Assembly (NCBI GenBank): GCA_010093515.1
Contig: MU001678.1
Span: 124,001 to 188,000 of the forward strand
DNA length: 64,000 nt
Direction of reading: 5' to 3'
Origin: Lineolata rhizophorae
Lineage: Eukaryota > Ascomycota > Dothideomycetes > Lineolatales > Lineolataceae
Shown: positions 12,182 to 35,737 of the stretch, piece by piece
Numbering within the stretch: position 1 is the stretch's first letter
Layout of the letters: each line of letters begins with the position of its first letter
Made by a program: the position numbers and the translations under genes
The notes under the pieces: model-generated
The model's input: the letters and a program-made list of their open reading frames with translations, nothing else
What the model was told of the DNA's origin: nothing
Databases searched by the model: none

Positions 12182-12486
12182 TTAATGGTCTCCGTCTCCG
12201 AATGTTATGCCTAGGATTACGTCCAGGGCCTGCCTATTTCGCGATGGTGTGCTGCGAGTATGGCGATTGGTTAGATATTGTTTCTGACATTCTGTCCGCA
12301 TCCTCTCTGGATTTTGGTCTGGCTTCTGCTGCACATGCCATTCATCCCTATACTGATGCACATCGCACCCAAACTTCTTCAAAAACACACTTCCTACATC
12401 CGGGCGCTTCGCAGTAAGCTATGTCCCTTGCAGACGCACTCGATAGTAACAGGCTTCTTGCAGAATGAGCAGTGATGACGAGGCAT
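12182..12486 (-). pseudogene. Relic (F) of the HHC/GGWN family
   Basis: Reading down from 12486, the sequence gives MPRHHCSFCKKPVTIEC followed by VCKGH. This matches the first half of the Cys/His module of genes A-E, with the C-x2-C-x7-C-x4-H spacing intact. The match then continues only by changing frame at least twice: a CEAPGC segment, and further on GCDVHQYRDEW, equivalent to GC..HPYRDG of the intact copies. The recognisable part ends near 12338; an open frame without the PPxGGWN motif runs on to 12182. Unlike every intact member, it has no intron inside the first cysteine codon. That suggests either a retrocopy or loss of the intron before decay. Resemblance was found by eye, so identity was not measured. 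Confidence 0.6.
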
Positions 12487-13736: not shown

Positions 13737-14261
13737 TTAGGTGCCCTTCTTTCCTTTTCCATTCTTTCCCATTTGGTCTTTACCCCTTCCCTTTCCTCTT
13801 TTTGGTTCTTCTTGTCTGTTCCAACCGCCTGCCGGAGGCTCTAAGTTCTGCCTTTTCCGGGGCTCGTTTCCGGTACTGTGGGAAGAAAGTGTTAGAAAAT
13901 GATAGAGATTTTAAGGGATAGCATTAAATAGGCTTACTCGTTCTTGGCCTCTTTTGGCTTATGTTCCGCGCTAGTATTGTGCGGATCAAAGCTTTTGTTA
14001 TGGCTATCTATGTACGGATGCATTCTACATCCGTATCGTACTTGGAAGTACCTGCCGCATTCCTCACAGGCAGCTATGTGCCCCTTACGGACACATTCAT
14101 ACCCAGCGACGGAAGAGCAAACTGAACTATACGAACAAGGTCAACAACTTGTTAAAGTATTACGACAAGACATTTGGGACCGAGTAACGTATACTGTATA
14201 CTCACCAGTGGTGGAAATTTTTCCTGTTCTTAATGGCACCAGGTTTAGCCTCTCCGGACAT
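13737..14261 (-). CDS. HHC/GGWN family protein A (unrecognised family)
   Basis: Three exons (14261-14206, 14126-13938, 13875-13737) give an uninterrupted 127-residue protein. Exon 1 encodes MSGEAKPGAIKNRKNFHH and ends inside the next codon, TG|T, so the intron splits the first cysteine exactly as in B-E. Exon 2 carries the module: HCSVCSSVAGYEC, then VRKGHIAACEECGRY, then GCRMHPYIDSHN. The spacing is C-x2-C-x7-C-x4-H-x3-C-x2-C-x9-C-x2-H, eight potential ligands for perhaps two zinc ions. Exon 3 carries EPPAGGWNRQEE and a Lys/Gly-rich tail. No signal peptide or membrane segment is seen. I do not recognise the family; nuclear or nucleic-acid-associated action would be only a guess from the basic tail. 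The longer N-terminus resembles B and differs from C-E. Confidence 0.75.
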
Positions 14262-17021
14262 CTTGTACTCTGGACTGGAACCTTCGCAAAAGTTGGGTAG
14301 AGTTGCGTGAAGAGGCTTGAAAGTTATAGTCGGGACAGGTGCCTGCCAGGAGAAGACAATATTAGCGCACTCTATTACTGTGTTGGAGAAAATGTCTCTG
14401 ACACGGTTTTAGTTGCTGATAGTCTAGACCACTAGGAGCTTCTTTCGTTAAGCGTCATAATAGAGTGTAGGCTCACCAGGTCCTGATACGCCGATGGCGT
14501 AGAGACGCGTTGCAAAAGGTAAGTTTCTGTTGTGATAGTTGGAGATATGGAGAAAGAAGAGCGGATGAGAGACTTTGCAGGGGGGAGAGGCATTTTATAG
14601 GAGAGTGGACGAGAAATTCTATCGAAGGGAAAGCATTCTATAGCTCAAACTTGTCCGTTGCTGTCGGACAGCCTTGGCAAGATGTGCAGCCGATGTCGCT
14701 TTGCCATGCTAGCCCAAATGCGGAAATTTGGCATGGGAATGGTCCCTGAAACGAAATGTAGGATATAGTTATGGCGCCAGACTTCACCATGGCGTCAGCT
14801 CGGGCTATCTCCCCGATCTATGTTCCTCTGACGTGGGGCAAAGCTTTTCCACCTCGGTTTTGAACCGTGGCTATTGTGAGAGATCTTGAAGGACGATCCG
14901 TTAGAATCGCAGCAATGTCTGGAGCTCGCCATATCTTCGTCATAGGAGGCTAGGCACTTTTCATGATTAGATGTGTTATAGAGTGGTATCTGAGTTATTA
15001 TTTGATATAGAATATAGGGCTGCTACTGTAGCGTTTGAGGCGGACGTCACTAATAATAATGCAAGCATGAACGAAGCCTGCGCCTGACTATAAGTGATTT
15101 TAGATTGCTTCGAGTGGACAAACTTCATGGCTTCAGATGTAGGGCGCACCTTGGGATTATCATGCGGAATGCCTACAAACCCCTAGCAATGAAGACAACA
15201 GTGATTTGTTATATACATGAATTCCTCGTATGAAACTTGAAGATTGAAATAATTAGATCGCGGAAGGTTTAGCAGGTAACTATCTAATGAAGGGCGGCCT
15301 TCAAAGTTGGGAGACCTGATGACTTAGCCTCTTGACTTTTGAGCTAAAGGTCACTCTTACATCTTATGTTATTAAGGTGACATTAAATACCGCTACAATT
15401 TTCTAAAGAATAAAGTCAAAATACTGTTTGGTCTACTCTTGCAGGTGAATACGCGACCAACTTGCCCATACGCTTCTTCGAAAGACTATGATCATATTTG
15501 TGGAACATGGAACTTTGAGAATTGCCAGGCAAATATCATCTAAAGGCATAATATGATAATTTGAAATTACTGACGTTTGAGAGCTTTTGTCATAGATTCT
15601 AACAATCGCACCCACATATTAATCACTAAAGATATGAGCTGCTCTCGTTCGCCTGCTGGTTCCGGCCTCACTCTGCTCGCACTTTTGGGGCCTCTCTGAC
15701 CCCAATAGGAGGATGTAGGTTAGTATTAAGAAATAAGTACATAGGATGGGAAAGTTAAGAGCATACAGCAAGGAGTACAGCACAGTGAGAGCATACACAG
15801 CATGGAGAGAGTTCATAATGTATGCAGAACACGGAGAGTATGCAGCATAGAGAAGGTCGGAGGACACCCCGTATAGGGAGATGGTCGTAGTGGGATGAGG
15901 CATGTAGTATGGACAAGGGAGGATATCAAAGTATGGCTCCCATCGGAAAGGTGAACGCCATGCGCGGCCACAAAGCCTCTAGGACGCTGTTCGGAGTACC
16001 GCTTTCCTATGCTAGTCGTCCTTAGAGATCACTCTTGGGGTTTTGGAGCGTGCAAAACGCGACAATTGCCGGGGTAGAGTAGGGAAGGCTAACTTATTCC
16101 AAGTGCGTAGATGTGAAAATGAAGGTGCAGCTAAAGCATAGTGCGAACTAAGTAACGAATAACCGAATGGAAAGTTAGTAGTATCTGCCATTGTCTATGA
16201 CAATTTCGAAGCCCAGCCATTGCGGATTGTTACAATGATGAAAGCCCATGAATTAAGTACAGAAACAGAAACCTTAACATACAAATTCCAGTATCGCTAC
16301 ACCTAGTCGTCTATTCCATACCTTCATATGGGCTTTCACGTTGTAGGTGGCTTTTGGCCGCACATAAAAATTGACAATCTAAGGTTGTATTGGAAAGTTG
16401 TGTGAAGGCTCGCTTCTAGAAGAAGGCGCTTGGGCTCGCTATCTGCACTCACCTATAGATCATGTATGGACGTGATCTACAGGCAACAGTGAGAGATCTA
16501 ACTTAATGGAGGGCTTATGTTCCCAATCATACGCCACATCAAAACGGGAACATATTTGTGATCTATCGCATCGTCGCATATAGCGTGCAGCTACGAACCC
16601 TGCATGGTTCTTAAATCTGTAATTTTGCGTATTCATTGGGAAGATGGTTTAAGGATTTCGCAGTTGTCCATGTGCTTGAAAATTGCCACATATTTTGCGC
16701 TATGCGAGCCAGCAGCGAATAGAATCGTAACATCTTTGCGAGCTAGACGAACATGAGGCATTTGGGAGTATGCTTTCGATTCATGATGAAATCAAAAGAT
16801 CCGAAGACTTGAAAATATGGGAAAAATCCGATGGAAAAATGTTGAATGTAGATTCTTTCACCGCACGACCACAGTGCGGATAAATAATATTTTACAAGTC
16901 TGCTTTGTAAATGCTACTGAATAAAAAAAACCAATGGAAACCAAACCCGCTCTATAAGAAGCCTCCTAACTATACACGCCCTAGATTTGCCCGGCCTAAT
17001 CTTGCACTCCCGGGGTAGTTT
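14262..17021. other. Gene-poor DNA with an imperfect short repeat
   Basis: No gene could be supported. Around 15745-15860 there are imperfect recurrences of short words like AGCATACAGCA and GGAGAGTATGCAGCA, suggesting an old degenerate tandem array. The rest is moderately AT-rich with stops in all frames. No RNA gene or transposase was seen. Confidence 0.45.
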
Positions 17022-17496
17022 CTACTTCTTGCCCTTGCCCTTACCCTTTGATTTCGCCTTGCCTGTCTTGGCGGCCTTTTTTTTGTCTTTAGGCCGATCT
17101 TTATTCCAGCCTCCGGCTGGGGGATCTTCATTGTTTGTTGTCTTGCGTTTCCTAGGCCTATATATTGGCAATTTCAGTACGGCAATTCGGTGTTTGCTAC
17201 GATGTTGCATGCTCACGTATCTTGAGACGAGTTAGAGAACTGATGGCCGTACTTTAAGCCTCTAACTCCACCGTTAAAGCCCTCAGCATAAGGATGCATA
17301 ATGCATCCATTCCGGGTCTGGTAATAGTGACCGCATAGTTCGCAGTACCTAATGTGTCCCTTGCGAAGACAGCTGTGCAGAGCAAGTTCACGGCAGAACG
17401 TGCTTTAAAGTCTTTGTTAGTTTAATATAGGCAAGAAAAGGTGAAGCATAATCACCAGTGATGAAATGTACCACCTCGGACGCAAATTGGGGGCAT
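17022..17496 (-). CDS. HHC/GGWN family protein B (unrecognised family)
   Basis: Three exons (17496-17456, 17402-17217, 17157-17022) give 120 residues in an unbroken frame. Exon 1 encodes MPPICVRGGTFHH and ends TG|C within the first module cysteine. The module reads HCTFCRELALHSC, LRKGHIRYCELCGHY, then GCIMHPYAEGFN, with the same spacing as the other four copies. Exon 3 has EDPPAGGWNKDRP and a strongly Lys-rich tail ending KGKGKGKK. A and B share the FHHC start, the C-x-R-K-G-H core, and the lack of the PxLxWKNA segment found in C-E, so they are closest relatives of each other. They lie about 3 kb apart on the same strand. No family assignment is possible from the sequence alone. Confidence 0.75.
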
Positions 17497-18959
17497 GAAT
17501 GTAAGCGCTTGAAGAATAAGACGCTAACTGAAAGCGACCTTTAGCCCAAAGGACACTTTGTTGAATATAAAGCGTAGATCTTCAACCTGCTAAAAGCGGA
17601 AATCCGAAAGAAGTGACGTTTACAAAAGAGTGACTACGGTCAGTTTCGGAGGTGTTGAGGAGTGTCGCTGAGGACTCTAGCCCTGGACTTTCCGGTCACT
17701 CCTGAGCGACGGGTAGAGTACGGGAGGAAGAGCGGTGGTGAGAAATGTGTATGCGGATTTTTTTTTCTTGAGAAGAGTTAGAAGAAAGTCGATGCTACAA
17801 AAAATTTATTGACGTATTCAGCTTGTTTCACCTACTAAGTAACCGACCGAAGAATGAGCGCTGCTCGTGTTCTTCTTTGGTGGTGAGAAGAAAAGAAGGA
17901 GGAACGGAACTTTCAGCCGCATCAGGAGTTTTAAATAATGCTACCTTGAGAGCAGAGAAGGTGATGCTCTGCTGGGGTGGTGAAACTAGCATGTGCTAGA
18001 CTTCTGCCGACGCACTGCATGCAACCGCAGCCTTGTTGCGTCACGCTTCCGTACTCTTCCAGCGCTCTGATTGGACGCCAAGTAGCACAAAGGAACGTTG
18101 GCCGATGCAGGACTAAACGTGAGCAACGAGAAGTTCACTTGCTACAAAAAGGATCATATGTGGAGACAGACGATTTGTGAGGCAGCATGAGGTAGCTTTG
18201 AGAGTTGGCTTCGTGTCGGATTAGGGAAAGGACAAGTATTGCTATTTGTCTCTGTAAACTAGATATCTGTATCAGTATATCAGAGCATGGCTGCTGGGTC
18301 CAAGTATAATAGTACAAAGCATAGACATACCCTTTCGTAACTCATCTGTGAATCCATTCCAAGCCCACTTTAGCCAGCAGCCACACATGAAAGAGCGACC
18401 AAGAGACCCCATAGCTTAATGGAAGCTCACACCACGAAGATCTGATACCAGTAAAACTAATAATATAAGCAAGACCGCTTAGGACATGGAAGGGAACAAT
18501 CCGCTTGCCTAAACAAGCCTAGCGCCCACCCAAGCCGAACATCACTCCGTTGACAGCGCAGCTTCGCGAGTCTGATTCTAGCGACAAAACACTAATCAAG
18601 GCTTGATCACATAAGCGCCACAAAATGAATGCACTCTTTCCATTTAAAGTTCTAAGCCACAGATGCAATCCTGAAGACGTGTGGGAATACGGAGACATAA
18701 TACCCTAAACCTTCCCGTTTTATGAACGCCTCGCACATTCGAAGTCGTCCATCTCATCATCCACATCGCCGGCCTACGGCTCCCTAGTCAGAGAACGAAA
18801 GGCTCTGAAAGAAATAGGAGAGAATAAGCAAAGAGAAAGACCATGAAAATATCACTGGAGTAAAAGAAATCAAAAGGCCCTGGGTATACAAGAACACCCG
18901 CCCTGATCCTGCCCTCCGCATAACCAGTAAACCACGCTCGCGCCTGCTAGTCATCGGCC
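17497..18959. other. Intergenic DNA between gene B and RPD3
   Basis: It holds the promoter of gene B and the 3' region of RPD3. No coding exon, RNA gene or repeat was recognised. Short open frames are not family-like. Confidence 0.45.
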
Positions 18960-21816
18960 TTACTCCCCCTTCTCGATCTTCTCCTCCACCCTCCCTTCCC
19001 TTTCTGCCGCCACTTCTGCCTCCTTGGCCTTCTCTACCCTCTCCTTCACTCCTTCGGCCTTACTTGTCTCCGCGCTCATCTCGTCCGTCTTAGCCTCCGC
19101 CTCTCCGTTGCCTCCCTCTTTCATTCCGATATTCTCACTGTTAGCCTGGGACGCCTCCACATCCACTTGCTTTTGTGCTTCTGCCGTAGTGGCAGGATCG
19201 GCTGGCGACGCACGCCCTTCCTCACCCCCGGCGGCATTGGGCGCCTGGCTCGGCGGATGAACATCGGACGCAGACGTGGTGCCGGGAAGGGTGGGTGACG
19301 GCGACGACCCCGGCATATCCGCTGGCGCCGCAGGAGCAGCTGGCGGCGAGGCTGGCGGTGTAGGATGCATGGCTGGTTGAACAGCAGGTTCAACAACAGT
19401 CTGCGATGAAGATACCGGCGTCGCTGACTGTCGCTGCAGCTGGTCTTGTTGCGTCGGTGCAGACTCGGTCGTTGACTGAGGTGCCGACGTTCCTGGAGCT
19501 GGACTGTCACCACGTGATACTGAGGCTGAAGCGGTAGTAGCGGCCGGCCTAGATTGGCCTTCTTCGCGCTCTGGCTCAGCGGTACCTTCTTGATTCGCTG
19601 ACGCGGGCTGCCCCGGGGCGTCGCTCATTTCGAGGTCTCCGTCAGACTGCACAGCTGGGGTTTCAGATTCGGCCGCCGGGTGAGCCTGAGGCTTAGCTGA
19701 TCGAGACTTCGAACGCGAAAGACGCCCCGTGGGAGACGCTGCAGCGGATGGCTGGGCGGACTTCTCCTTCGACATGTCTGCCGGTGCGGCAGCGACGGTG
19801 GCGGCTTCGTCATCTTCCTTGACGTCCATCATAGTCACATCGCCCGCCTCATCTTCGTCCTCTTCGTGCTTCATCTGGACATCCTCGGACTCTTGTGCGA
19901 CAGTTCCGGCCGCATCGCCGTTCGCGCTTTGTGCTTCGGCGGCACGCTTTCCTGCCTCCGCCACTGCCGCTGCTTCGCGACTTGCGGCACGCCTCGCTGC
20001 ACGCGCGGCCGCCCCTGTTACTACTTCCTCGCCATTCAGCGCCCGCGGAGGGAGCACAGGAGTACCATTGGCTCCAATCATCTCGACATCTTGTGCCGGA
20101 TGCCTATTCTGGTAGTCCATGATATGCATCCTCTTCTTCCGACTCGGCTGCTTCCGGACACCGTTCCGTCCATTCAGCTCCTCATCTTCAGAATCAGTAC
20201 CGATCTCGTCATCTCGCTCGATCCGGCGGTCCCAGCGGCGTTGCGTGTAGCGTTCGTCAGGGTGCTCATCGGCGTCAGCATCATCAAGTTCATCTTCCAT
20301 TTCGTCTGACGCAGCGGCGAGGGCGGGAGAGCGCGGTACATCAGTCATTTGAACTGATGGAGCATGCGCTGTGCGGCGTAGATTCTCAATGACTTGATTC
20401 TTGATCTTTTCAAGATATTCGCGAGAGTTGGCGTTGTCCATGTTCGAAGGGCGTACATCCAGCTCATAATCCGGTGCAAAGTACTAATAGCACGAATATT
20501 AGCGTGTACCCAAAATGGTTTCAAGGCCTACATACCTCATAATAGTCATTGAACGGGAGATCGGGGCCCATGTCTTGTCCCACTAGTTGCCCGGTCTCAA
20601 AAGCCCATGTGCGTGCAACATTGCGCATCGTATATCCACCGCCGCCCACCACCAGAGTGGGCAGATTGAAGCTTTTGACGTAATTCACGCAATTTGCATG
20701 ACCCTTCATACTTAAGTTGAAGCAGCCGAGCCTATCGCCAGATAGGCTGTCTCCTCCACATTGCAGTACGACCGCCTCGGGTCGGTAGTAGTCCATGACG
20801 GCCTTGATAACAGGCTCGAAGACGCTCTTATACGTTTCGTCCGTTATGCCATCGCGTAGCGGGAAGTTGACTGAATAATACTTGCCGGTGCCAACACCAA
20901 TATCACGCAGCTCACCTGTTCCAGGGAAGTATTCGCCGTACTTATGGAAGGAACAAGTCATCACCCGATCAGTAGTGTAAAACGCTTCCTCGACGCCGTC
21001 GCCATGGTGCACATCGATATCAATGTAGAGCACGCGCTGCTTGAAGCGGAGAAGTTCGATAATGCCGAGAACGATATCTGTAAGAAGTCTAAATTAGTCT
21101 CTGCGTTCGGAAGCCACCCCCTGAATCGATTCTGGCGAATCCCTGGAAAATCCATACCGTTGATGTAGCAAAAACCGCTTGCCTCGCTCTTCTTCGCGTG
21201 ATGCAGACCGCCAGCCCAATTGATTGCAACGTCGCACTTGCCTCGGTTGAGGCGCGCAGCACCTTCCATGCTGCCACCGGCGCTAATTCCACAAAACTCG
21301 AAGAGGCCATCGAACACCGGACAATCATCACCGACGTTATATTTGCCCTGCTCTTTTGCGAAGTTGTCCATGTTATCCGGCGTGACCTTCTGCAGGAAGT
21401 CGACATATTCGTCGGTGTGGAACTGGGTCATCTCGTATTTGGTGGCAGGCTTCGCGCGCTGTTTGGCAAGAGTTCGTTAGTATCTTTAACATTTACTGAA
21501 ATGTCTCAAATACATCAGGGCGGGGTTCGAAGCAGTCGCGAAGAGACCCTCCGGAGCGAGCGTCGGGTGCGAAACCAGCGTGACGAAACCACAAATGCAT
21601 CTGGGTGGTGCAACTCACGTAGATCTCCATTTTCTTGTATAGGCCATAGTTCATGACCAAGCTGTGGGCCATTCGAATACGATGAGGCTTCATAGGATGG
21701 CCCGCGACGTAAGCATAGTTGCCCACGTCGGAGTCGTAAAAGTAGGCCACTTTCTTGGGGCGCGATCCGCTACCGTTCAGGGCAGCCCCATCGAGGGGGG
21801 GCCCGAAGCCAGCCAT
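18960..21816 (-). CDS. RPD3: Class I histone deacetylase Rpd3/RpdA
   Basis: This is the zinc-dependent deacetylase of lysines on histone tails, catalytic subunit of Rpd3/Sin3 complexes in the nucleus. Four exons (21816-21619, 21458-21158, 21077-20536, 20483-18960) give 854 residues. The catalytic domain fills residues about 20-390: [15 protein letters not shown], the active-site [10 protein letters not shown] (His152, His153), [14 protein letters not shown] with zinc ligands Asp188 and His190, and [20 protein letters not shown], then [18 protein letters not shown]. After about residue 400 comes the extension typical of filamentous ascomycetes: an acidic stretch, a basic [19 protein letters not shown] segment, then about 350 residues of Ala/Pro/Ser/Glu-rich disorder. 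In Aspergillus RpdA the C-terminal extension is needed for growth; that is family knowledge. The gene is divergent from RPN11 across 726 bases. Confidence 0.97.
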
Positions 21817-22542
21817 GGTGGGAGCAAGCTCGCGTCGACTTCAGGATTAGAAAGGCCTGAAGGGGGCTGTCGAGATTAGGGGGAGAAATCTCCGCTTAGT
21901 ATGCCGGAGTAATAAAGAGGAGAAAGTCCGTGGAAAATGGCACAGCACTGCGAGCGGAGCAGCGGAGGACATGTGTAGGAAGAAGAACAGAGAGAGGGTG
22001 GGCGGAAGAGCAGAAGCGCGCCGCAATGGCAGCACCCCGGACGGGGCGGGCGGTGAGAGCTTGGGGGTGCATGCACCACCATCGCCCTGCCGGCAGAATT
22101 CCGAAGCGGAGGGCGGTCGCTTACATAACCGCCGATGGCATCCCGTCCATCCGTCAACTGCCAGCAGTACCTCCAAACAAAGATTTGACTCGGCTCATAT
22201 TTATATATTCTTCCAAAAATCACCACAATATTCTCCGTGAGAACTTAGCGCACGCATAAGCGTTCTGCTGGGTGAAGTTCCTTCAAAGATTGGGCCATCT
22301 GCCAAGCACAGATCACTCGCGGAGTTACAGTTGGCCCGGCGCTCATGGTCGGACTTGCCCTACAGAGTACTGCTACCTATAAACAGCAAACGCATAGCAG
22401 CAAGCTTCCGCCACTATCACCCGCAGATTTCGCCGCCTCGACTTCCTAACTGCGCGCCTTTTCTTTTCAAATACCCTTGCTAGCGCATCAAATCTTCGTT
22501 CCGCCTCCCCATAACCTGCGCTCCTCTGGTCGCTTGTCAAAC
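21817..22542. promoter_or_regulatory. Shared divergent promoter RPD3/RPN11
   Basis: This 726-base stretch separates the start codons of RPD3 (minus) and RPN11 (plus). It is C/T-rich next to both starts and holds both 5' leaders. I looked for the yeast Rpn4 proteasome element GGTGGCAAA and did not find it. Open frames here are not family-like. Confidence 0.6.
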
Positions 22543-23704
22543 ATGGAGCGCTTCGGCCAGCTTCTCGCAAACGCCCAGCGCATGGGTGGCATGAGCGCCG
22601 GTCCTGCTCAGGTAGTTGCTCCCGCTCTATGTTCACGGGGGGCATATCCGGCTACGGAGAAATGGCTGTGTGCCGTGGTGGAAGGCGTTTGAACAATGAC
22701 GCTAACACAATCTACGAGTAGGATACCAACCTGATAGACAACTCGGAGACCGTACACATTTCGTCACTCGCGCTGCTCAAGATGCTGCGGCATGGCAGGG
22801 CCGGCGTGCCCATGGAGGTCATGGGTCTGATGCTGGGCGAGTTTGTCGACGACTATACCGTGCGCGTGGTAGACGTGTTTGCGATGCCGCAGAGCGGGAC
22901 GGGAGTGTCGGTCGAGGCCGTGGACCCCGTTTTCCAGACCAAGATGATGGACATGTTGCGACAGACGGGACGCCCCGAGACGGTCGTCGGATGGTACCAC
23001 TCGCATCCGGGCTTCGGCTGCTGGCTCTCTTCTGTTGATATCAACACCCAGCAGAGCTTCGAACAGCTGACGCCACGCGCTGTCGCCGTCGTAGTGGATC
23101 CCATCCAGTCGGTCAAAGGCAAGGTCGTCATCGACGCCTTCCGTCTCATCAACCCCCAGACCCTTATGATGGGCCAGGAACCACGCCAGACGACGTCGAA
23201 CTTGGGTCATCTGAATAAGCCGTCCATCCAGGCACTGATACACGGGCTCAACCGTCACTACTATAGCATCGGGATCACCTACCGCAAAACTGGCCTTGAG
23301 GAGAATATGCTGATGAACCTCCACAAGCACGTTTGGACCGAAGCCCTCGAAATGAACGATTTCAGGGAGGAAGGAGACCGTAACAGGGAGCGCCTGAAGA
23401 GGCTAGTCGGGCTCGCAGAGGGTTACGAGAAGCGGGTAAAGGAGGAGACGGAGTTGACGAAGGATCAGCTGAAGACGAGATACGTTGGAAAGGTGGATCC
23501 GAAGAAGCGTATGTCAATACCACTTTCGCCTCATAGATTCCAACAGACACTGATAAGTATACAGACATCGAGGACGTCGGACAGCAGCTGATCGAAGACA
23601 ATATCGTTTCTGTCTCTCGACAAATGATCGACAAGGAAGCTTCCGTTCCCAAGGGCAAAACACCAACAAATGGAGTGCCAAATGGAGATATGGAGGTGGA
23701 CTAA
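22543..23704 (+). CDS. RPN11: 26S proteasome lid deubiquitinase Rpn11
   Basis: This is the JAMM/MPN+ metalloprotease of the proteasome lid that removes ubiquitin chains from substrates during degradation. Three exons (22543-22611, 22722-23508, 23565-23704) give 331 residues, normal for the family. Catalytic residues are visible: Glu55 in [13 protein letters not shown], then His116 and His118 in [16 protein letters not shown], with Ser126 and Asp129 completing H-x-H-x7-S-x2-D. The C-terminal half carries the helices that pair with Rpn8, ending NGDMEVD. Intron 1 has a clear GCTAAC branch point. The end converges with the MDR oxidoreductase gene 248 bases away. Confidence 0.97.
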
Positions 23705-23952
23705 TGATGACGTGGAGGTTGCATTCTTGTTTGTGTTGTTCAGTCTATTTGTATCATATGGACGATTGGTGCACGGCGCCGGAACAGCCACATAGATGAT
23801 AAAGGCGCATAATCGCGAATTTTTCATTCCGAAGTCCTCCTTTGTTAAATTGTTCCAGGAAAGCTACATGTTGCTACTGACATTACTGCGTCTTCGCTCA
23901 CCCCGAAACGTACAAGGCCAGGTTAAAAAAAAAAACAATTCGGGAGGGAACC

Positions 23953-25035
23953 CTAAATTTGTACGCCCGGCGTGTCCGCAATGCGGAAGACATACTTCTT
24001 CGCGCTCACTTTACCGTCCTTCAGCTCCTTCAACGCGCCTTCGACACCCTCCAGTCCACCTTTAGCCACGTCGAACGGATGCGCCTTGAACCAGCCTTGA
24101 TGCAACCCCAAAGCCACGTATCTGAAGTACACATAGGCGAAGTCCTTCGCGACCGTATGCGCGTGTCCGACCATCGTCATCGTCGTCTTGACATGCGCTG
24201 GCTGCTTCTCTTCGTCTTGCGGCGGCACCGGCAGCACAGTCGTAACCTGGCCGCTCTCGGGCATGGCAGCCCAGCAATTGCAAGTAGACCCCTTCTCGCT
24301 GACGGCGTCGAAGGCATGGTGGACCGCCCCGGCCGAGCCCATGGTCTTCGCGACCGCCTCGCCGATGCCCCGAACGACGGCGTCGTCGCCGCCGCGGTAA
24401 TCCACGACCGCGTCGCCCTTGCTCGGATCGAGCAAGCCCTTCACGAAGTCGGTGCCGCGGCCCGCCACCGCGACGATGGGATGGATGCCGGCGCGCTGCG
24501 CGAGCTGGATGGCGAAGGCGCCGACGGCCGTGGCGCCGCCGTACACGATGAGCGGGCGCTTCTCGGGCCCGACGTTATCGGGCTTGGTCCACGGGTCCGC
24601 GAAGCCGAGGTCCCAGAAAAGGCCCAGCGCGGCCGTCATGGCGGCCAGCGGCAGCGTCGCCGCCTCCTCGAACGACGTCGCCTCGGGCAGCCGGAACGTC
24701 GTATGCGCCCAGGCGAGGCTGTACTCGGCGTAGGAGCCGCCGGGCTTGCGCATCTCGTGGAAGGCGGCGACGCGGTCGCCGGGCCGGAACTCGAACACGT
24801 TAGACCCGACGGCGTGCACGACGCCCGCGATGTCATCGCCCTGGTTAATGCTGCGGCCGCCGGGCGTCGCGAACCAAGCGTCGGGGTTCAGGGCCGTCCA
24901 GTCGGGTGTCTTCCAGTCTTTAGGGTTAGAGCCGCTGACGATGGTCTTGATGACGACTTGGTCTGGTCCCGGGGTCGGAATTGGAGAGTCAATTATCTCG
25001 ACCCGCGGGCCAGCGTGAACGATGGCGTCTTTCAT
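23953..25035 (-). CDS. Medium-chain dehydrogenase/reductase, quinone or enoyl reductase-like
   Basis: This is an intronless 360-residue NAD(P)H-dependent oxidoreductase of the MDR superfamily. The N-terminal GroES-like domain (MKDAIVHAGPRVEIID, then SGSNPKDWK, NQGDDIAGVVHAVG) is followed by a Rossmann domain with the nucleotide loop VYGGATAVGAFAIQLAQ at about residues 158-175. The structural and catalytic zinc ligands of classical alcohol dehydrogenases are missing. The pattern fits the fungal LovC/ToxD-like trans-enoyl reductase and quinone reductase branch; the substrate is unknown. There is no polyketide synthase nearby, so a stand-alone metabolic or detoxifying role is more likely. The ATG was chosen because the ten further upstream codons start only with TTG, and this ATG has a good context (CAACCATGA). 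Confidence 0.85.
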   Translation of the reverse strand: MKDAIVHAGPRVEIIDSPIPTPGPDQVVIKTIVSGSNPKDWKTPDWTALNPDAWFATPGGRSINQGDDIAGVVHAVGSNVFEFRPGDRVAAFHEMRKPGGSYAEYSLAWAHTTFRLPEATSFEEAATLPLAAMTAALGLFWDLGFADPWTKPDNVGPEKRPLIVYGGATAVGAFAIQLAQRAGIHPIVAVAGRGTDFVKGLLDPSKGDAVVDYRGGDDAVVRGIGEAVAKTMGSAGAVHHAFDAVSEKGSTCNCWAAMPESGQVTTVLPVPPQDEEKQPAHVKTTMTMVGHAHTVAKDFAYVYFRYVALGLHQGWFKAHPFDVAKGGLEGVEGALKELKDGKVSAKKYVFRIADTPGVQI

Positions 25036-26577
25036 GGTTGATGTTTGGTGTGCAGGGGTGATCAATTGGAGTAATTTGGTCAGTGTTGGTTGTCTCGTGG
25101 TATCTTTTGGTCGGATTCGGGGCAGTATTTAAGGGCTTGAGAACACTAGGAAGGCTCTCAATGAGGGCTGACGCGTTTGATCAAGTTTTGTTTGTAAGAA
25201 CGGATGAAGACGAACTCTCGCCGAAGCGTTTCGGACCCAATAGAAACCTTTCGGAAGATTCTCCATGCCAATCCTACAACTGAGGTTATTGATAATCTTC
25301 CAATCCGGCGACTTACAGCATCGAAGAGCATCGAAGAGCATGGCTCTTGAGCTCAGGGCTTGTCTAAGTGGAGAGGTGAGTGGTGACGTGACTAGGCCCG
25401 GGGTTAAGACAATTATTAATGCTTCTACGGCAGCCCGGTACCTACCTAGTGTTACCGGACCGGCAGCATCTACGTGCAGCAATCTCCGCTGCTTCAATGC
25501 ACGTGAACCTAGGTATTGCCTTGGAGAGTCGGAGATCATTCGGAAACTTCATGCCGGTTCGAAGTGCGGGTGGAGTTTGCCCCCCTGTGTATGTACAGGG
25601 GGGCCGGCCTCGGGTTGCACCATCACGAAGTCCGGACGTCCAGGCGGAAACACGGATGCGAGATCGCCATCAAGCACCTTGCCCGACATTGTTCTGCACC
25701 TTTCGCATTACTACTACGGATCGCGTTCTTGATATCGCGCTTTAATCCGACACCACTGTACTACATCCGCTCAGTCTTCCACCAGAACCGACGGAGACCA
25801 CTTGTGGATGCGCCGTTCTGGCGATTTGCCCATGTCGGATGTATCAGGTCTCCTATTTAGGCTTAGTTTACCAACCTTGACAAGCGTCCCACCTATGTAC
25901 ATACTACGTGGGTACTTACCTATGCAGCCTCAAATAACACCGTTTTCCAATGTTAATGGACTTACCCTATCCATCCCAGGTCTCTACAGGCATCTGACAG
26001 CCTAATTGAGCAATTGTCGCTAGCATGAGCACCGGCATACCTATCACTACTTCAACACCCCCTACGATGGTAAAAATATGATGTCAATGTAAGCATTACT
26101 TGAATCGCAGGTGATCTTAGCGCACACAGCCTGCCGCGCTGAACCTCCCACTAGAATGCACTCGACAGCAACAGCAAAAAACAGTCATTACCGAAAGACA
26201 AAAAAGTATGGACAGAACCTTAATGCTAGCATCGTACACGAATGGTGGGGGAGCGCAGACTCCAAAAACGCCGGAAAATAGCCAGCCCAGCCAAATTAGA
26301 AGCTTGTAGTAGAGTGAGCCTCATCACAAGTGACATGAGGAATGCCGTGACTGGGAACGAAGCTCCAGGGAAATCCTTCCAAGTTGCTCGCTTCACCGAA
26401 ACCGACGAGGGAAAGGACAATGATGCTAAAAACAATCGCGCCGTCAAAGCACACAACGTGAGCAGAGAATGAAGGGGACCATGAGCCACGAGAAGACCTC
26501 TACAAAACCTGGCCATGCATAAGGACAGCAGAGGCAAGTCACGACTCTAGCTTGCAAAACGTGTTCGGCTGCGCGTC
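25036..26577. other. Intergenic DNA between MDR gene and kinesin-8
   Basis: It holds the MDR-gene promoter and the 3' region of kinesin-8. Several open frames of 60-155 residues overlap each other on both strands and resemble nothing known; I treat them as chance. No RNA gene was recognised. Confidence 0.5.
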
Positions 26578-29500
26578 TTATCTCCACGCATTCTTTCCTG
26601 TCATCAAGCTGCCCCTGCCGCCGTTCCCGCTTGCCGACACGCTGCTCACCCTCACCGGCCCATTCCTCACCTGCTCGCTGCCCGTGGTGGTCCTCCTCGC
26701 GGGCGCTCCCTTCACAACGGGCGCGCTGCGCGGGCTCAGCACGCTCGCCTTCCATTCAGCATCGCGGTCCACACTGCGCACCATGCGACGGGCGTGCGAC
26801 GCCGTGAACATGTTGCCCCCGCCACCATTGCCGCCTGCGTTAGCGCTACCAGTGCCGTCATGGCCGCTGCTGCCGGGCGGGCTGCCGGCTGCGTTGTTGG
26901 CCGACGAGCTCGTCGGGCTGCGGCGGCGGTGCGCGCGAGGCTGGCCCGGGCGATGGTCGTCGCGGCCGCCGGCCGAGGAGCGCCGTTTCATAGCAGACCG
27001 GATCTTCTTGGCGTCAGACGGGTCCACGGGCATGCCCGCGGACCATGACTTGTTAGCGGAGTCTTCGCCGTCCGATGAGGAGCCAGACGACACGGCTGAA
27101 GACTCGTGCGGCGCGTTGGCGGCGTTCTGGACGGCCCGCAGCGGCGAACGGTGCGGCGCCTTGTTAGGCTCCATCTCGCGCAGCGGCGACGTATCGCTGT
27201 CGGAGCTGAAGTTGGTGAGGGGGGCGGCGGACCCGCCGAGGGAGGGTGATCCGTTCTCGCCTTTCTTGGACAGAAAGCCTGCCTGGAAGCGGCTGGAGCG
27301 AGGCTTGATGTCCAGGGAAGGTTCTGGTGGAGCCGGGATGGGCGAAGAGCCATTGTGGTCAGGCAGGACGGTGTTTCCTGCAGTAACAACAGCTGACAAA
27401 GTGGGAGCTGCGGGCATGATTTCAGTTGATGAGCCCGTCGGCGTGTCATCGAAAGCCTTGGGTGTAGACTGGAAATCGGCCAGCGAGCCATCCTCGTTTT
27501 CATCGCGCCAGCGGACGCCGCGCTTGAGGCCCTTGACAGGTGACTTCTTCTTGGGCGTGAAGGTAACAGCGACACCTTTCTTAACGATGGGCATCTTGCG
27601 CCGACGCGGTGAAGCCTTCATTGGCGAGGAGTTCAGGTGAGGAGCCTCGACGTTGGTGTTACGTAGGCGCATAGGAGAAGGGCCCATTAAGTTGCCCCCT
27701 TTGCGCCGCTTCGGGGTGCCGGCTTTGGTTGGCGGGAATATTTCCGTTACTGGAAGTCCGCCATCCGGCTTAATTACTTGGGAGGTAGACTCGGTGCATG
27801 ATGTGATGAGCTTGCCGAGTATATCACGGGCAGCCTCGATAGCCTCCTCCTCATCCATGGTCATGATTTGGTTCAGGATGGCAATGGTGTCGAAGTGCGC
27901 CTGGAGCAGGACTTGCACGACCGCAGTGTCAGATCCCTTCTCCTGCTCACAAACGCTCATGTAGGCTTCCCGGTCCGCCATTGACTTCAACAGTTCTGCC
28001 TCCCGTGTGAGGGAGGAGACATTCTTGTCATCATCATTTCCATCTACCTCAGTCAGTTGTCGAATGCCGGTCTGCAGAGCTGTGTCAATGGTACGCTCCC
28101 AGTTCAACTTGGCCAACCGTTGGTGGTAGTGCTGCCTGCTGCTTTCCAGTTCGGCGAGGATGCCAGAAGCAGTCTTTCGCATGGCGACGAGGTTCCTAGG
28201 CGGTTCCTCGTTCTCCCTATTTTCGCACACTGTATCAAACGCGGCCACCCAGGAAGAAATCATGGAGATGCGTCGCTCAATCTGACGAAGCCTCTTCATG
28301 CTGGTCACGCGCTCATTCCGTTCCGTAGCACAATGCTCATATGCGTTGCGAATTCGTACGATGGCCTCCCTTGCCACAGAGTCGCGCTTCTCGCTCTGCT
28401 TTCGAAACTTGGCAAAGGCGGTGCCTTCGTAATCCTTCTGCTGCGCCTTGAGCTCGTTGATGAGCGCCATTTGCTCGTCAATCTTCTTGAGGAAGTCCTT
28501 GACGTGTCGATTGACGTTATACACATTGCGGGTAACCTTGGTCTGAATGTTCTTGGCCCGGTTCGCGTATCGCAACGTGTTCTGCGTCTCGTCGTAGTGC
28601 GCGCTCGACGGGCTCACACACACGATCATCACTGTCCGGCAGTTGCCCCCCAACGAGAACTTGAGCAGTCGCGTTAGCTTTGAGTTGCGGTAGGGCACAT
28701 GATTCCGCTTGCGCGGGTCGCATAGCGCGTTAATGCAGCTGCCCAGCGCCAATAACGATTTGTTGATATTGGCACCCTCCATCAGGCGCTCACCCCGGTT
28801 CTTAGTTGCCGAAGCGCGTTCGCTACCCGCCAGGTCGATGATGCTGAGAGTAGCCATAGTGTGCGGTTCGTTAACATCGGCATTGCGGTCTTTTTGCGAT
28901 ACATTGATTTGCAGCACGGCGTGCGAGCGGGAGGATGTGGCGTTGGCGTCGGTGGGCGACATAGTGCGGTACTCGTTGCCGCGGATAATCATCTCCATGA
29001 CTTCCTCGACCTATTTGTTGGTGTTAGAACATGTTCGATATGTCAGGGATATATAGTAATGGTCTATACGTTTTTAGGGTGGTGACTGGACAGCCCAGCG
29101 ACCGAGACAGCCTGGTGCGAATCCTCTCTCAGCATGAGCCCCTGCTTACTGCCGCCTGGGACGAGCAGATCGCGAATGGTCTCATTGTAAATCTCGAGGT
29201 ACGAGAGCGAAATCTCTGTGACCTTCTCCTCTTGACGATCTCCTATCTTCTCGAAAAGCTCCTGCATGGTAAGAAAGATTATACCAGGCTGCTGAGCAGT
29301 CCCACTGTGTTCGCCGTTAGAATCCATATCAGGCGGTCCTGTGTGTCGGAGAGAGTATACATACGTAATGGTATGCGTCTTGCCGCATCCCGTTGCTCCG
29401 TATGCGAAAACAGTAGCATTGTAGCCATCCAACACGCTATCCAGCAGGCTCCTGGTCGTCGACTCATATACATCTCCTTGCGAGGTATTCTCATCAAAGA

Positions 29501-29909
29501 CCCTATCAAAGCAGAAAGTTTGGTCTTTGACCCGCTTGCCGTTTGGAACGACTGATTTCGAAAAACGTTGGACAGGATTGTCCTCGGGCGGATCGAATAT
29601 TCTATATTTTGCCAACCCTATCAGTTTAAACCATTCCTGCATGCCCGCATCTCCATGCCCCAGCAAAGATGTTGTACATATAGAAATAGAAATAGTTCGA
29701 ACATACATGCACTTCTCATCTACAACCTTGAGGATAGGTCGCAGTCCCTTTTGCTGCAGTTTCGGAGCCGGCGCGGCAGCCAGCGACCCGTCACCTAGAA
29801 AGAGAGGCCCTTCCTCAGACCGTGCCAGCTGCGCAGCCTCACGTATCGTGAAGGGCCGTACGCGGACCGTCACATTGATAGAGGCGGCCCCGTCGATGGG
29901 CGCCGCCAT
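26578..29909 (-). CDS. KIP3: Kinesin-8 motor protein (Kip3/Klp5-Klp6 type)
   Basis: This is a plus-end-directed, microtubule-depolymerising motor that sets spindle and cytoplasmic microtubule length. Four exons (29909-29707, 29601-29365, 29304-29070, 29010-26578) give 1035 residues. The motor domain is N-terminal: [10 protein letters not shown] at 11-20, P-loop GATGCGKT at about 136-143, [13 protein letters not shown], switch I NATSSRSH, switch [13 protein letters not shown], and the conserved [14 protein letters not shown] and [15 protein letters not shown] neck and coiled coil follow, then a basic disordered tail with many Ser-Pro and RxS-like sites. The insert after VRPF (about 30 residues) and the IIFDPPED segment are family traits of kinesin-8. 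The first three introns interrupt the motor domain. The family call is by motif recognition, without an alignment. Confidence 0.93.
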
Positions 29910-31041
29910 GGTGGTCGACGGGGACGTTTACTTGGCGTATGCAATCGGTCGGAGGAACTGCGAGGGAAAGGAACCGCAGCAAACCCAATATGTGTGAGAA
30001 GAGAAAAAAGCAAAGCAAAGACAAATGCTCTCGGCAGGGGAAAGAAGATGTATCGAGGGTCGGGCGAGAAAGCGTGTGCTCTCGATTTCTAGGGAGTGTG
30101 TGTCTGGTTTGTCGGAGCTTCGGGTGGTTGCGGTGTTTGTTGTTCTTTAGCTGCTTGAGGTTTAGCGCGGTACACTCGCGCAGGTGCCCCTACCAGTCGG
30201 ACCCACAACTATGTGCCAAGACTCGCGGACCGGGAAAGGCACTGCAACGACCGACCTCACGTCTCTCTGCCCCATCGCAGCGTCGATTCCCGTCTCTAAG
30301 AGAAGTAGAATTTGAACACACTTGCCTCGATAATTTCAACAATTATCCACATGTGTTGCCAGTCATCAGAAACGTAGAGTTTCCAACCTTCTATTATTCA
30401 GGCATGTCTCCCTCGCGACTGGGAACCCTTTGATGGACCTTTCTCAAAGGCCTACTCATGCTTCGAATGTTCAGAGGCTCGCAAACTTGCAGTTACAATC
30501 TTTTCTATTACTGCTACTGGCCTGTACCAGGACTAGCCATTTTATTCTATTCTGCCAATTTTGCCTCCTCCGGATTGGGACACAATCGAGGTTTTGTTCA
30601 TGCACTATCCAACGACCATCCCAGAAGTCTAGTCAAGTAGGCCAGCGCATACTATCTATATCAAGCAGCTCAACCCCCTAGTACCATAAATAGCGAATCG
30701 GGCAAAGCGAAACATCAAGCCCGCAGCTATTCTTCCTTATGTATATATTCTTCTTAATGTACTTCGGGCTCTTCACAGAACATGTTGATACACGATGCAC
30801 AAGGTATCGCCTAGTTTTACAATCTCGTCTGCGCTTATTACATACGAGGCGTAATGATACGGTTTCATTTTGATAATGCATTTGGATTTCTACAGAATTT
30901 CCCCTTGTGGGAACAAAAGCGTGGTGATGAGACATAAGCACTCAATCCTTACCAAGGCCCAAAATCCTATTGGCTTTCCTGTCATCACGCCACCACTACA
31001 GCATCCGTTGCCAGATGCTTGTGAGCTCTTCTGGTTCTGTC
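29910..31041. other. Kinesin promoter and AT-rich DNA
   Basis: The first ~350 bases are the kinesin-8 promoter and leader. The remainder up to gene C is AT-rich and stop-rich. No gene or RNA was recognised. Confidence 0.5.
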
Positions 31042-31614
31042 TCATTTCTTGCTCAGCTTCTTGGCCTTGCCATGGTGCTTGAAGACCTTCTTGCCCACCT
31101 GATCAACCGGCTCTCCAGTACGGCTGGCATTCTTCCAAGACAGTTGTGGAACACCCTTGTTGTTCCAGCCTCCAGCAGGAGGATCATCCTTCTCGTTTGG
31201 AATCTTAACCCGCGAAGGCGCGGTCGAGGCCCTGCTCCATAGTCAGAGGATTCTCGTTGGAAAATACATCAGGATCTATTCCACTCACGACTGCGCAATC
31301 ACGGCGGCTCTACCCTTTCCGACATTCATGGCACCCTTGCTTCCCGCCTTGATTTTATTGAGTCTGAGGGCGGCAGCATGCTTGTGCTTAGCGCCATCCG
31401 GTCTCTTGCGGTAGGTATTATAGCCGTCGCGATATGGGTGATTGCTGCAGCCCTCACGCTGTTGACAAAATCGGTGGCAGTTATCGCACCGGAAAACATG
31501 CTCTTTTTGGTAGCAGTACGTGCTTGCAACCCGTTTGCACATGTTACTAAAAGGACGGTTACTTAGTTCTTGCCAGGAAAGGATGTAAGGCGATTACCAA
31601 TGGTGTCCCGGCAT
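31042..31614 (-). CDS. HHC/GGWN family protein C (unrecognised family)
   Basis: Three exons (31614-31598, 31546-31289, 31231-31042) give 154 residues without interruption. Exon 1 is only 17 bases (MPGHH plus TG) and ends in the first module cysteine. The module reads HCNMCKRVASTYC, YQKEHVFRCDNC, then GCSNHPYRDGYN, with the common spacing plus an extra Cys in the x9 segment. Exon 3 carries DDPPAGGWNNKGVPQLSWKN and a Lys/His-rich tail. Intron 2 uses gtgagt and a CTGAC branch. The PQLSWKNA segment links it to D and E and sets all three apart from A and B. An array of eight 17-18 bp repeats lies 135 bases upstream. No known family was recognised; the conserved cysteines suggest zinc binding. Confidence 0.78.
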
Positions 31615-32688
31615 GTTGAGCGTGGCCGGAAATTTTTGACCGAGGCGAGCAACTGCTTGAGCGTGGACACCAGCGATAACCCTCCGGCCGAGATGGCGAG
31701 GGCGTCAACGTGAAGCGGTGCTGCAGCAAAGATATCGAGGCGGTGTCCAAAACGAGTGTGTTGACCAAAACGATCGTGTCGATCAAAAAGAGTGTGCTGA
31801 TCTAAAAGAGTGTGTTGGTCAAAAGAGTGTGCTGATCAAACGAGTATGTTGATCAAAACGAGTGTGTTGACCAAAGCCAGTGTGTTGAAGTGGCAAAGTT
31901 GAGGAGGGATGGAGTTGGTGGAAGAAGGTGGCGAATGGTGTAAGTGCGTCGTGTGAATAACACCACGCCAGGCGACAGAGGTTTGTGCACATGGGTTCCT
32001 TGGCCAAGATTTCCCGCTGTAGACGTGCCGCTAATGCGATAAGTCGACTTGCTTAGTTCTACTCATGCCGAAGCCCCTCCTTAAGTCTCTTTTTAGACTA
32101 CCTTCCCTATGGCCAGACTATGGTTCAATTTACAACTTGACCTGGATCGCCCCCATATTCCCGCCCATGGTGTCTGAGCTCAAAAGTATTGCCCGCCTGC
32201 ATCTAGTTTTCTACTTTGCCTTTCCACCCAGCTTCCGTAGCACGTCTTTAGAATAGTAGAAGGAAGTGAGCATACTTCTGGAGATATACAGTGATGTCAG
32301 ACCTCACCCTTGAGATCCATTCTGTGCGTTTCGACTCCCTAGAAGATCGCTTTTGGTTTCAGCTCCTTCCAAATCTGCAAGAACGCTCATACTCATGTAT
32401 TCTCTTCTTCATATACCCGCCATCCTAATAAGCCAAACGTGGGCCAATGGTGACAACCATGCTTGCAATAGTGGAGATGTTAGGCTCTCTGGGTTTAAAG
32501 GGCCATAACCCAATTTCTTAACATACCTTCATGCTAGTGGTATGGCCTGCTGCAGAGAGACTAACATACAACCTGATCCTAGATACCGCTCTTTGGGTGC
32601 GGCCTTTAGGCTCCTTCTTCAGGACCTCATTTCTCTATAGCCCTTTCCCTTTTGTGATTCACAACTAGGGCAACTCTACTTTGCGCTT
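31615..32688. other. Intergenic DNA between genes C and D
   Basis: It contains the tandem array at 31749-31890 listed separately, the presumed promoter of gene C, and the 3' region of gene D. Otherwise stops occur in all frames and nothing else is recognisable. Confidence 0.5.
31749..31890. repeat. Tandem array, eight units of 17-18 bp
   Basis: Eight imperfect copies of a unit close to AAAACGAGTGTGTTGATC run head to tail (six of 18 bases, two of 17). Variation is mostly single-base changes (GTTGACC, GCTGATC, GTTGGTC). The array ends 135 bases upstream of the start codon of gene C, so it lies in the likely promoter. Confidence 0.85.
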
Positions 32689-33265
32689 CTACTTCTTCCT
32701 CCGTTCCTCCGTTTTCCCATCCTTCCCTTTGGCGTGCTCCTCCACTTCCACCGGTTCTCTCTCTTTTTTCGCATTCTTCCAGGAGAGTTTCGGAATTTGA
32801 GTTTGATTCCAGCCACCCTCAGGCGGGTCCTCGGCTGGTGAACGGATTGTGACCCTCAAACGGCGGTTTGGTGTTGCAGGTCTTTGACTTGACAAGTTAG
32901 TATATCAAATTCCTCTTAGGTAATCTGATGCTTACGTTTCGTCGACAGCCTGCTCATTCTCTTGTTCCTGGGCTCCCTCACGAGCGAAGTTCTCAGGGCG
33001 TTGAGCCCCGGTTGGTGTATTGGGGATGAGGCTCTGGCGCCGGCGATTCCTCGTTAATTCTTTCTCTGCGTTGTATCCATCACGGAATGGATGCGAAGCG
33101 CATCCCTCGCGCTGCTCGCACATGTGGTCACATGCCTCGCAGCGGAAAAGATGACCCTTCCGAAAGCAGTAGTTGTTCGCTACTTTCTTGCAGAGGGTGC
33201 TAATATAACTTAGTTGGCTACATTTTAATTCTATGGAGGTGAGGTACTTACCAGTGGTGAGGCAT
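32689..33265 (-). CDS. HHC/GGWN family protein D (unrecognised family)
   Basis: Three exons (33265-33252, 33199-32936, 32887-32689) give 158 residues. Exon 1 as drawn is 14 bases (MPHH plus TG) and ends in the first module cysteine, as in A, B, C and E. The module reads HCTLCKKVANNYC, FRKGHLFRCEAC, then GCASHPFRDGYN. The third exon holds EDPPEGGWNQTQIPKLSWKN and a tail of Lys and Glu. An in-frame ATG at 33499 with no stop between would add 78 residues, Thr/Pro/Asn-rich and unlike the other members; the short start was chosen because C and E also begin just before HHC. Frame is intact throughout. The function is unknown. Confidence 0.78.
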
Positions 33266-33499
33266 CTTCGTGGTAAGAGGTGCGGTGAAGTTCGGTGGAG
33301 TAGGTATTTTCTTGATATAGGGTTGAGAGAAAGTCTCAAAAGAGAATGAGGGGATGTGAGGGAGCCTTATATCGTTTAATCCATTCGTTGTGGAGAAGTT
33401 TGTTTGAGGTATTGTATTGGGTAAGGCCAATGATCTATGGCCATTAACGTATTGAACAAGAGTCAAATTTCGTGAATCCATAGGTTTATGGATCAGCAT

Positions 33500-35016
33500 G
33501 TTGACTTGTTAGGTTTTATCATGCCTGGTTACGGCTACTTGTGACAAAAATAAGCGAAGTGCAAAGAGAGTCGATATATTAACAACAAGAAGCGAAGGTA
33601 TGATAAAAGATGTCGGCGTTCTGGGCTGTCTGAGGAAGCCACTTAATGCGTCACGGCCAAGGCCCGCGCTTTGAGACATGTCCAATGTCAGTTTAGTACA
33701 TCGAGTGTGCACAAACTTTCGACAATACTTAATTAGCCAAACGCTAGTTCAAAACAGAAGGTGAATAAATTGGACTACAAATTCAAGATAGCCACACGTG
33801 CAATGCGTTGAACGACCTAGCTGGATCCTTCGATGGCTAACTGAAATATGAAATGTCTCCTAGACTACAGCCAGGACTTCATTGCCCTATGGGACTTATA
33901 TTAATAGTGCTGCCTCAGGCGAAGTTTTGTAGGATTGCTCTAACTTCATCAAATTTCCAGAACACTTCAAAACTTATTTTCCGTTTGAAATGCCTGTTCA
34001 GAGTTTGGCATTAGGGAATAGATCTCTGGCATCTACTGCTAGATGTGAATGCCAGGCGTCCATGAATTTGCCAACTTATTCTATTTGGCTCATGCCCTCG
34101 CTTCTACCAATGATTCAGTCCTTGGTCCGAGACTAGATATTCCTCGTAGACGAATAAATAATGAATCCCCACGATTTACGGCTTGCGACGCCACTTTCAT
34201 TCCTAGAACTTATAGTAGTAAGCTTTACGTTAGCAATCAAAGTGCCTCTATATCCCACTTTCAGCTAACTACTACTTCCTTCAGTGCCCTACAAATGTTG
34301 TCACACTAGTAAGTCATAATGCAGTTGTAGATTAATTTATCTACCAGTGATGGTAGTTTTTGAGCGCGTTTCTAGTATCTTCAAAACAACGGTTGTAGCC
34401 GTGTACCATTTCGTGGGCGAATAGGCAAAATATTTGGCGGATAGTAACAGCTAGTAGAGATGTTCGAGCGATATTACGTTGAACAAGGTCTTGGGCTTTG
34501 CCATATAATTATTAGTTACTTATCACAAATTGACATTTCTGCAAATGCGAACATTGTAGACCCCATTTATATTATTAAAACAGAAACCATTATTTCTGAG
34601 CACAGCGGGACATTACCCCGTAAAGCTAGTTTCAAGAACTACTCGTCATGCTCTGCCACCATTGAAGTATTAAGAAGGTATCACGTTGATAGTTATCATT
34701 TGTAGAATGACGTATTTAATAATATGTCAACATCTTCAGCTTCGCTTGTTGAAGAGAAACTTACATTATAATACGAAATTGCTCCTGTTGCTATATTATT
34801 CTTGGAAACTTAGGAGCTTTCCAGCGCATTGAAGTATAATTTCTCCAAGACAATCTCAAATGCGACCAATTCTACCATCTGTCTTTTATGCAACATTAGG
34901 TTATTATTATTATTGCTGTGATCATTACATGTAAACTGAAATGAGACAGCATGCTAAATTCAACAAAAAATCAGCACAACTTTTTGCAAATTTTCCAACT
35001 ACAGTCGTAGTGTGAA
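33500..35016. other. AT-rich gene-poor DNA
   Basis: No gene was recognised. Near 34340-34360 the minus strand reads AACTACCATCACTG followed by a GT, like the end of exon 1 of the HHC/GGWN genes. It could be a further decayed copy, but no module or GGWN motif follows convincingly. The rest is AT-rich and stop-rich. Confidence 0.4.
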
Positions 35017-35737
35017 TCACTCCTCAGTCTCCTCTGCCCGTTGACGCGCTTTCTTCTGCATCTTCACTCCCTTCTTGATCTCCACTGGGACACCACACCT
35101 TTTGGCATTCTTCCAACACAACTGAGGTATCCCCTCCCGGTTCCAACCGCCTTCCGGCGGTGAGTCTCGTTCAGGCGAGGCGTCGGGCTTGTTGGCGGAG
35201 GGACTCCTGAGCTTTGTAAGCATGCATCTGCGGCTGCCATCATGTCGGGTGGAAACATGCCCTTTTTCGTCCGCATGAGAAGGATCTGCGTTCTCTTTCC
35301 CTTTCGCTTTCTCTGGGGTGACTGGTAACTTGCCTATAGGTTGGGCCCATGAGTCTTCGCCCTGTCGGAGACAGCTGGTCATGTCTGTGCCCTTGCCTTT
35401 CTTGCTCTGCACGTTATCATCCACTAGCCCTTTCCTCTCTTGTAAGACCGGCCTCTGGTCAGCGGCCTGACCTTCGTCTGGAAGCTTCCCACGCTCATCT
35501 GGGATAGATCCACGATTGTGCCTGTCCGTGTGCACGTTGTATCCCTCCCTGTAGGGATGGAGGTGACATCCTTCGCGGTACTGGCATACATAACTGCAGA
35601 CCTGGCACCGAAACACGTGTCTTTTTGCCTCGCAAAGTGCCCTTGCGGGCTTATTGCAAAAGGTGCTGTCGATGTTAACACGTAGAATTGACGGATCGAA
35701 GGAACACGTTTTACCAGTGATGAGTCGGCTTCCCCAT
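35017..35737 (-). CDS. HHC/GGWN family protein E (unrecognised family)
   Basis: Two exons (35737-35715, 35665-35017) give 223 residues, the longest of the family. Exon 1 encodes MGKPTHH and ends TG|C in the first module cysteine. The module reads HCTFCNKPARALC, EAKRHVFRCQVC, then GCHLHPYREGYN, with the shared spacing. The linker to the C-terminal motif is about 115 residues, hydrophilic, rich in Lys, Asp, Gly and Pro, and is read straight through, so the second intron of A-D is absent or has become coding. The end carries DSPPEGGWNREGIPQLCWKN and a basic tail. It groups with C and D by the IPxLxWKNAK segment. Function and family are unknown. Confidence 0.75.

Follow-up and report, generated by a model that had tools for sequence, protein, structure and literature searches.

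Among the described zinc modules, the RING finger (C3HC4) follows the pattern C-x2-C-x(9-39)-C-x(1-3)-H-x(2-3)-C-x2-C-x(4-48)-C-x2-C, the C2H2 finger follows C-x2-C-x12-H-x(3-5)-H, and FYVE carries the basic motif R+HHC+xCG; double-tryptophan hooks that bind Argonaute also exist. Small uncharacterised families are common in fungi, and a further family alone is of moderate interest. AT-rich stretches of fungal DNA commonly hold dispensable genes. The five genes considered here, A to E, lie in a window of 64,000 nucleotides of Lineolata rhizophorae and encode predicted spliced proteins of 120-223 aa that share the module HHC-x2-C-x7-C-x4-H-x3-C-x2-C-x9-C-x2-H and the motif PP[A/E]GGWN, both present in all five and the former with constant spacing. 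By this spacing the module stands outside the RING and C2H2 patterns and resembles short-loop zinc modules as a class; the novelty probably lies in a family or a variant module and is unlikely to extend to a new kind of system.

The gene models (Table 1) derive from an enumeration of splice models with at most two GT-AG introns, each 40-130 nt long, between the gene ends. In agreement with the sequence-only reading, which had proposed five intact spliced genes on the minus strand, each of the five ranges runs from an ATG to a stop codon on that strand and holds an open spliced frame with both motifs. The number of full-length models with both motifs was 2 for A, 12 for B, 8 for C, 4 for D, and 62 for E, for which one intron is sufficient and a second is not needed. 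Several choices are open for the second intron of B, of which the listed one (GTGAGC..ATATAG, 59 nt) looks best; the alignment of the B protein used an earlier choice. The second intron of D may alternatively end at 32882 or 32855, which likewise keeps the frame open. In the predicted models of all five genes, intron 1 (49-79 nt) splits the codon of the first cysteine of the module after TG, in phase 2, with the donors GTGAGT, GTGATT, GTAATC, GTAAGT, and GTAAAA from A to E; a second phase 2 intron is present in four of the five genes.

Table 1. Positions of the family members and associated features in the window (introns in the direction of transcription).
Feature	Position	Strand	Description
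Gene A	13737..14261	-	127 aa; introns 14205-14127 and 13937-13876, both phase 2; splice models and alignment
Gene B	17022..17496	-	120 aa in the preferred model; intron 1 17455-17403, preferred intron 2 17216-17158, both phase 2
Gene C	31042..31614	-	154 aa; introns 31597-31547 and 31288-31232, both phase 2; splice models and alignment
Gene D	32689..33265	-	158 aa; introns 33251-33200 and 32935-32888, both phase 2; splice models and alignment
Gene E	35017..35737	-	223 aa; single intron 35714-35666, phase 2; remainder one open frame
Decayed copy F	~12317..12486	-	first piece MPRHHC-x2-C-x7-C-x4-H without intron 1, then a frame break
Tandem array	31748..31888	n/a	18-nt unit, 7.9 copies, 134-274 nt upstream of the start codon of gene C

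The module had been described as one of eight ligands, and those eight are indeed constant; the invariant set, however, counts ten Cys/His residues, since HH immediately precedes the first cysteine in all five proteins. An additional cysteine after the third ligand pair is found in C, D, and E only; in A and B its place is taken by Phe or Tyr, and it thus falls outside the constant set. The unchanged ligand spacing and PP[A/E]GGWN motif, also noticed beforehand, were borne out by the alignment of all five proteins and by pattern searches: the part of the module that does not depend on splicing (C-x7-C-x4-H-x3-C-x2-C-x9-C-x2-H) and PP.GGWN each occur five times in the six frames of the window, always in A-E, and neither occurs in 100 shuffles in which letter pairs were shuffled within 500-nt blocks. 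The constancy of the ten residues suggests zinc binding. Downstream of PPxGGWN, the proteins C, D, and E (31045-35160) continue with [S/C]WKNA, absent from A and B in the alignment, and have a second Trp ten residues past that of GGWN, which is also lacking in A and B. The C-terminal tails contain 10 to 14 Lys/Arg per 26 to 40 residues, those of D and E including also 8 and 6 acidic residues, respectively; the predicted pI of the five proteins is 9.0-10.1, and no obvious secretion signal is visible by eye at their N-termini.

Two expectations of the sequence-only reading did not hold. The family had been called dispersed, and its members form two clusters on one strand, at 13.7-17.5 kb and 31.0-35.7 kb, with other genes between them. 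It had also been supposed that single-frame searches would miss these genes; however, exon 2 carries seven of the eight ligands of the C-x2-C...C-x2-H pattern, so that splicing is unnecessary for detecting the family, and exon 2 of all five genes was found by an unspliced six-frame profile (E 1e-56 to 1e-22), built from the same five genes that it then found.

The five proteins share 35-46% identity over all ten pairs. Differences affect 0.37-0.50 of the codons at position 1, 0.34-0.44 at position 2, and 0.63-0.78 at position 3, which is near saturation; in fact, dS is undefined for all ten pairs of whole genes and for eight of ten pairs of the module, and saturation therefore leaves no dN/dS. 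The upstream and downstream flanks of 600 nt have in common only matches of 12-25 nt (E 0.43); an apparent 126-nt identity between the upstream flank of C and the downstream flank of D was rejected as a repeat, being one and the same stretch compared twice. The likeness of flanks and synonymous sites has thus been lost while frames, ligands, and splice positions persisted, which points to selection on the protein. The earlier proposal that constant residues in otherwise diverged sequences imply selection agrees with both the codon-position differences and the unlike flanks, and A-E are supported as a family of genuine paralogues under selection at the level of the protein. The tree of the five proteins separates A and B from C, D, and E with a support of 96/96, although it has a midpoint root only and the program warns of long branches; this split coincides with the two physical clusters. 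The likeliest history, as far as sequence and position can tell, is that of intact, old paralogues arisen mainly by local duplication.

A sixth, decayed copy (F, Table 1) lies on the same strand. After the frame break, a later piece in another frame retains GC-x2-H, and PPxGGWN was not found in the copy. It was matched by tblastn with gene E (E 0.006) and gene C (E 0.011), and the six-frame profile recognised its first piece at E 3.1e-5 and the second at 0.019, below HMMER's inclusion line. The lack of the intron precisely at the conserved site could indicate a retrocopy, a single copy being no proof. A candidate seventh copy at 34352 was rejected: it has exon-1-like letters only, and none of ten splice joins reads on as the module.

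With Pfam matches at E up to 1e-10, seven out of eight open frames submitted from the window were assigned, to RPB1, a kinesin motor, a histone deacetylase, RPN11, an alcohol-dehydrogenase-like protein, hexokinase, and a protein kinase; the frame at 8282-8938 had no match at this level. For 700 residues of the RPB1 frame, the best PDB matches are fungal-type Rpb1 chains, the top one being 3h0g, a fission yeast entry. Together with the short GT-AG introns, this gene content indicates a fungus, probably a filamentous ascomycete. Across 10-18 kb and 30-38 kb, the stretches that hold A-E, the eight 2-kb bins have a G+C content of 0.425-0.495; in 22 of the 24 remaining bins it is 0.518-0.727, the other two, at 56-60 kb, having 0.488 and 0.493. 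The stretch 48001-50000, near the hexokinase gene, has a G+C content of 0.727, and both of its strands carry long open frames that overlap. At third codon positions, G+C is 0.49-0.61 in the family members versus 0.58-0.84 in eight other coding stretches. No tRNA was found by a tool set to the bacterial code, which apparently does not read introns, and no Rfam family matched at its gathering score.

The comparison with known families was negative at cut-off. No Pfam family reached it with the full-length proteins of the five genes, the modules of A-E, or three made-up consensus stretches, and NCBIfam gave none for the five proteins. The outcome that had been named as refuting was an assignment of the module to a named family by profile search; that search, made against Pfam, NCBIfam, and the PDB sequences, returned no match at cut-off, and the same Pfam result sustains the statement that the spacing does not belong to MYND, AN1, ZZ, B-box, or RING. 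In particular, no MYND, ZZ, AN1, or B-box model was listed at E up to 10, a range in which HMMER's filters drop most matches above 0.1. Searches of viral contigs and prokaryote genomes returned 39, 15, 18, and 33 pattern-matching stretches, none of which was confirmed, and these collections, unsuited to a fungal family, carry little weight. Within the excerpts available from the open-licence literature, PPxGGWN-type letters and HPYRDGYN had no match, and C-X7-C-X4-H led to work on plant CCCH fingers, with Drosophila RING domains also surfacing. The family is undescribed in the sense of being absent from Pfam-A, NCBIfam, the PDB sequences, and literature searches by motif, name, and descriptive words. 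The original observation is confirmed and exceeds chance, and the interpretation first given to it is supported in part.

Four other explanations have to be weighed. The module may have diverged from a known zinc family beyond the sensitivity of the libraries, for example from HIT, from MYND or B-box-like treble clefs, from FYVE, or from zf-RRPl_C4, a reading that is possible yet doubtful. Weak module matches speak for it. The highest Pfam score of any member is that of the B module with zf-RRPl_C4 (PF17026; E 0.01, 16.4 bits against a cut-off of 28.9; 14.5 bits with the full B protein), over residues 3-40 of the B stretch and 3-37 of the 108 profile positions; the match remains below cut-off, is restricted to B, and the name of the family says C4, in contrast to the mixed Cys and His ligands of the module. 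B also matched the FmdE treble clef (E 0.024), and A alone matched the HIT finger (E 2.3, 8.5 bits, cut-off 24.7) and FYVE (E 1, 10 bits, cut-off 27.8). The FYVE match covers HHC-x2-C, which is common to the FYVE basic motif; however, the residue before HH is F, F, G, P, and T from A to E, so that no Arg/Lys stands ahead of HHC in any member and R+HHC+xCG is not reproduced, and the downstream spacing also misfits the FYVE pattern. By sequence in the PDB, the family profile retrieved Elf1 as the best of three rows, at a chance-level E of 0.14. Against a diverged branch, every Pfam match is limited to one member, C and E having matches only at E 3.5 and 5.5 and D none. A compact RING-like cross-brace, in which pairs 1 and 3 would hold one zinc and pairs 2 and 4 the other with a role in ubiquitin transfer, is improbable. 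The ligand order C-C-C-H-C-C-C-H departs from C3HC4 at one of the eight positions, the last, where His replaces Cys, but the first loop of seven residues and C-x4-H, in all five proteins, lie outside the limits of 9-39 and 1-3, and no RING model was listed up to E 10 when the full proteins, the modules, and the made-up consensus were compared with Pfam (most matches above 0.1 being dropped by HMMER's filters). An AlphaFold2 model of the D exon-2 module, made from five sequences with the split first Cys read as Ser, was poor (mean pLDDT 56), and the eight rows that Foldseek retrieved with it from the PDB, none at E <=0.001 and five of them HOIL-1 (two named RING2; E 4.6-9.1), are not counted as evidence.

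A sequential nucleic-acid-binding finger, with C-x2-C-x7-C-x4-H on one zinc and the partly C2H2-like C-x2-C-x9-C-x2-H on the next, is rather unlikely. It is favoured by the invariant C25-x2-C28-x12-H41, which has the spacing of the first three C2H2 ligands in all five proteins, by the basic tail, by weak matches of one made-up consensus with zf-met (E 0.02) and zf-C2H2_4 (E 0.13), and by weak rows of C2H2 proteins in the PDB (E 0.92 and worse; Wiz E 0.62). All these matches are nevertheless below cut-off, the same made-up query fits desulfoferrodoxin about equally well (E 0.025), and the best of the six PDB rows found with the made-up consensus is desulforedoxin at a chance-level E of 0.52. 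Moreover, the second His of C2H2 is missing in B-E, A alone having H-x5-H, and the module has an extra invariant cysteine (Cys38) and two more ligand pairs upstream. Finally, it is quite unlikely that the genes lack any cellular role and are passengers or remnants, either of a mobile element or of an AT-rich, dispensable compartment. The low G+C content of the surroundings and copy F, which lacks intron 1 as a retrocopy would, are in line with such an origin. On the other hand, the 600-nt flanks of the five copies show no shared repeats, and repeats sought within each of the two stretches separately amounted, besides coding DNA and the one tandem array, to chance-like pairs of 18-25 nt. Both RIP thresholds were reached in 5 of 64 one-kb bins, one of which has part of A, and in just one of the seven bins holding A-E; the five intact frames with protein-level constraint also stand against passengers.

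The reading preferred here, with a probability of about 0.4, is that A-E would be intracellular, probably nuclear, zinc-stabilised adaptors descended from old local paralogues. The N-terminal module, of ~45 residues, would be stabilised by zinc and offer a rigid surface to one partner; a variable, probably disordered and flexible linker would connect it to the fixed PP[A/E]GGWN (GGWN) motif, which would dock a second partner, and the Lys/Arg-rich tail would serve in nuclear import or in contact with nucleic acid. The basic tail is a weak sign that the proteins act in the nucleus, and in D and E it is partly acidic too. When exon 2 of E alone was modelled by AlphaFold2, the mean pLDDT was 43, with residues 16-173 under 50, values that may fit disorder and equally a failed single-sequence prediction. 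As a guess by analogy, the spacing of ten between the two Trp of C, D, and E could suit an Argonaute-type double-tryptophan hook. The AT-rich location counts against the adaptor, given the dispensable genes that such stretches hold. It is also conceivable, although only tentatively proposed, that A-E represent a new fungal family with an unclassified zinc-binding fold, combining the ten-Cys/His module, a disordered linker, and a GGWN docking motif (double-Trp in C, D, and E), and kept in slowly diverging local clusters between housekeeping genes.

In all five genes the codon of the first ligand is split by intron 1, a precise marker with which the family can be traced in other fungi. If confirmed, the module would be one more in the catalogue of small zinc-binding domains, and A-E would be a selected multigene family located in AT-rich stretches between housekeeping genes.
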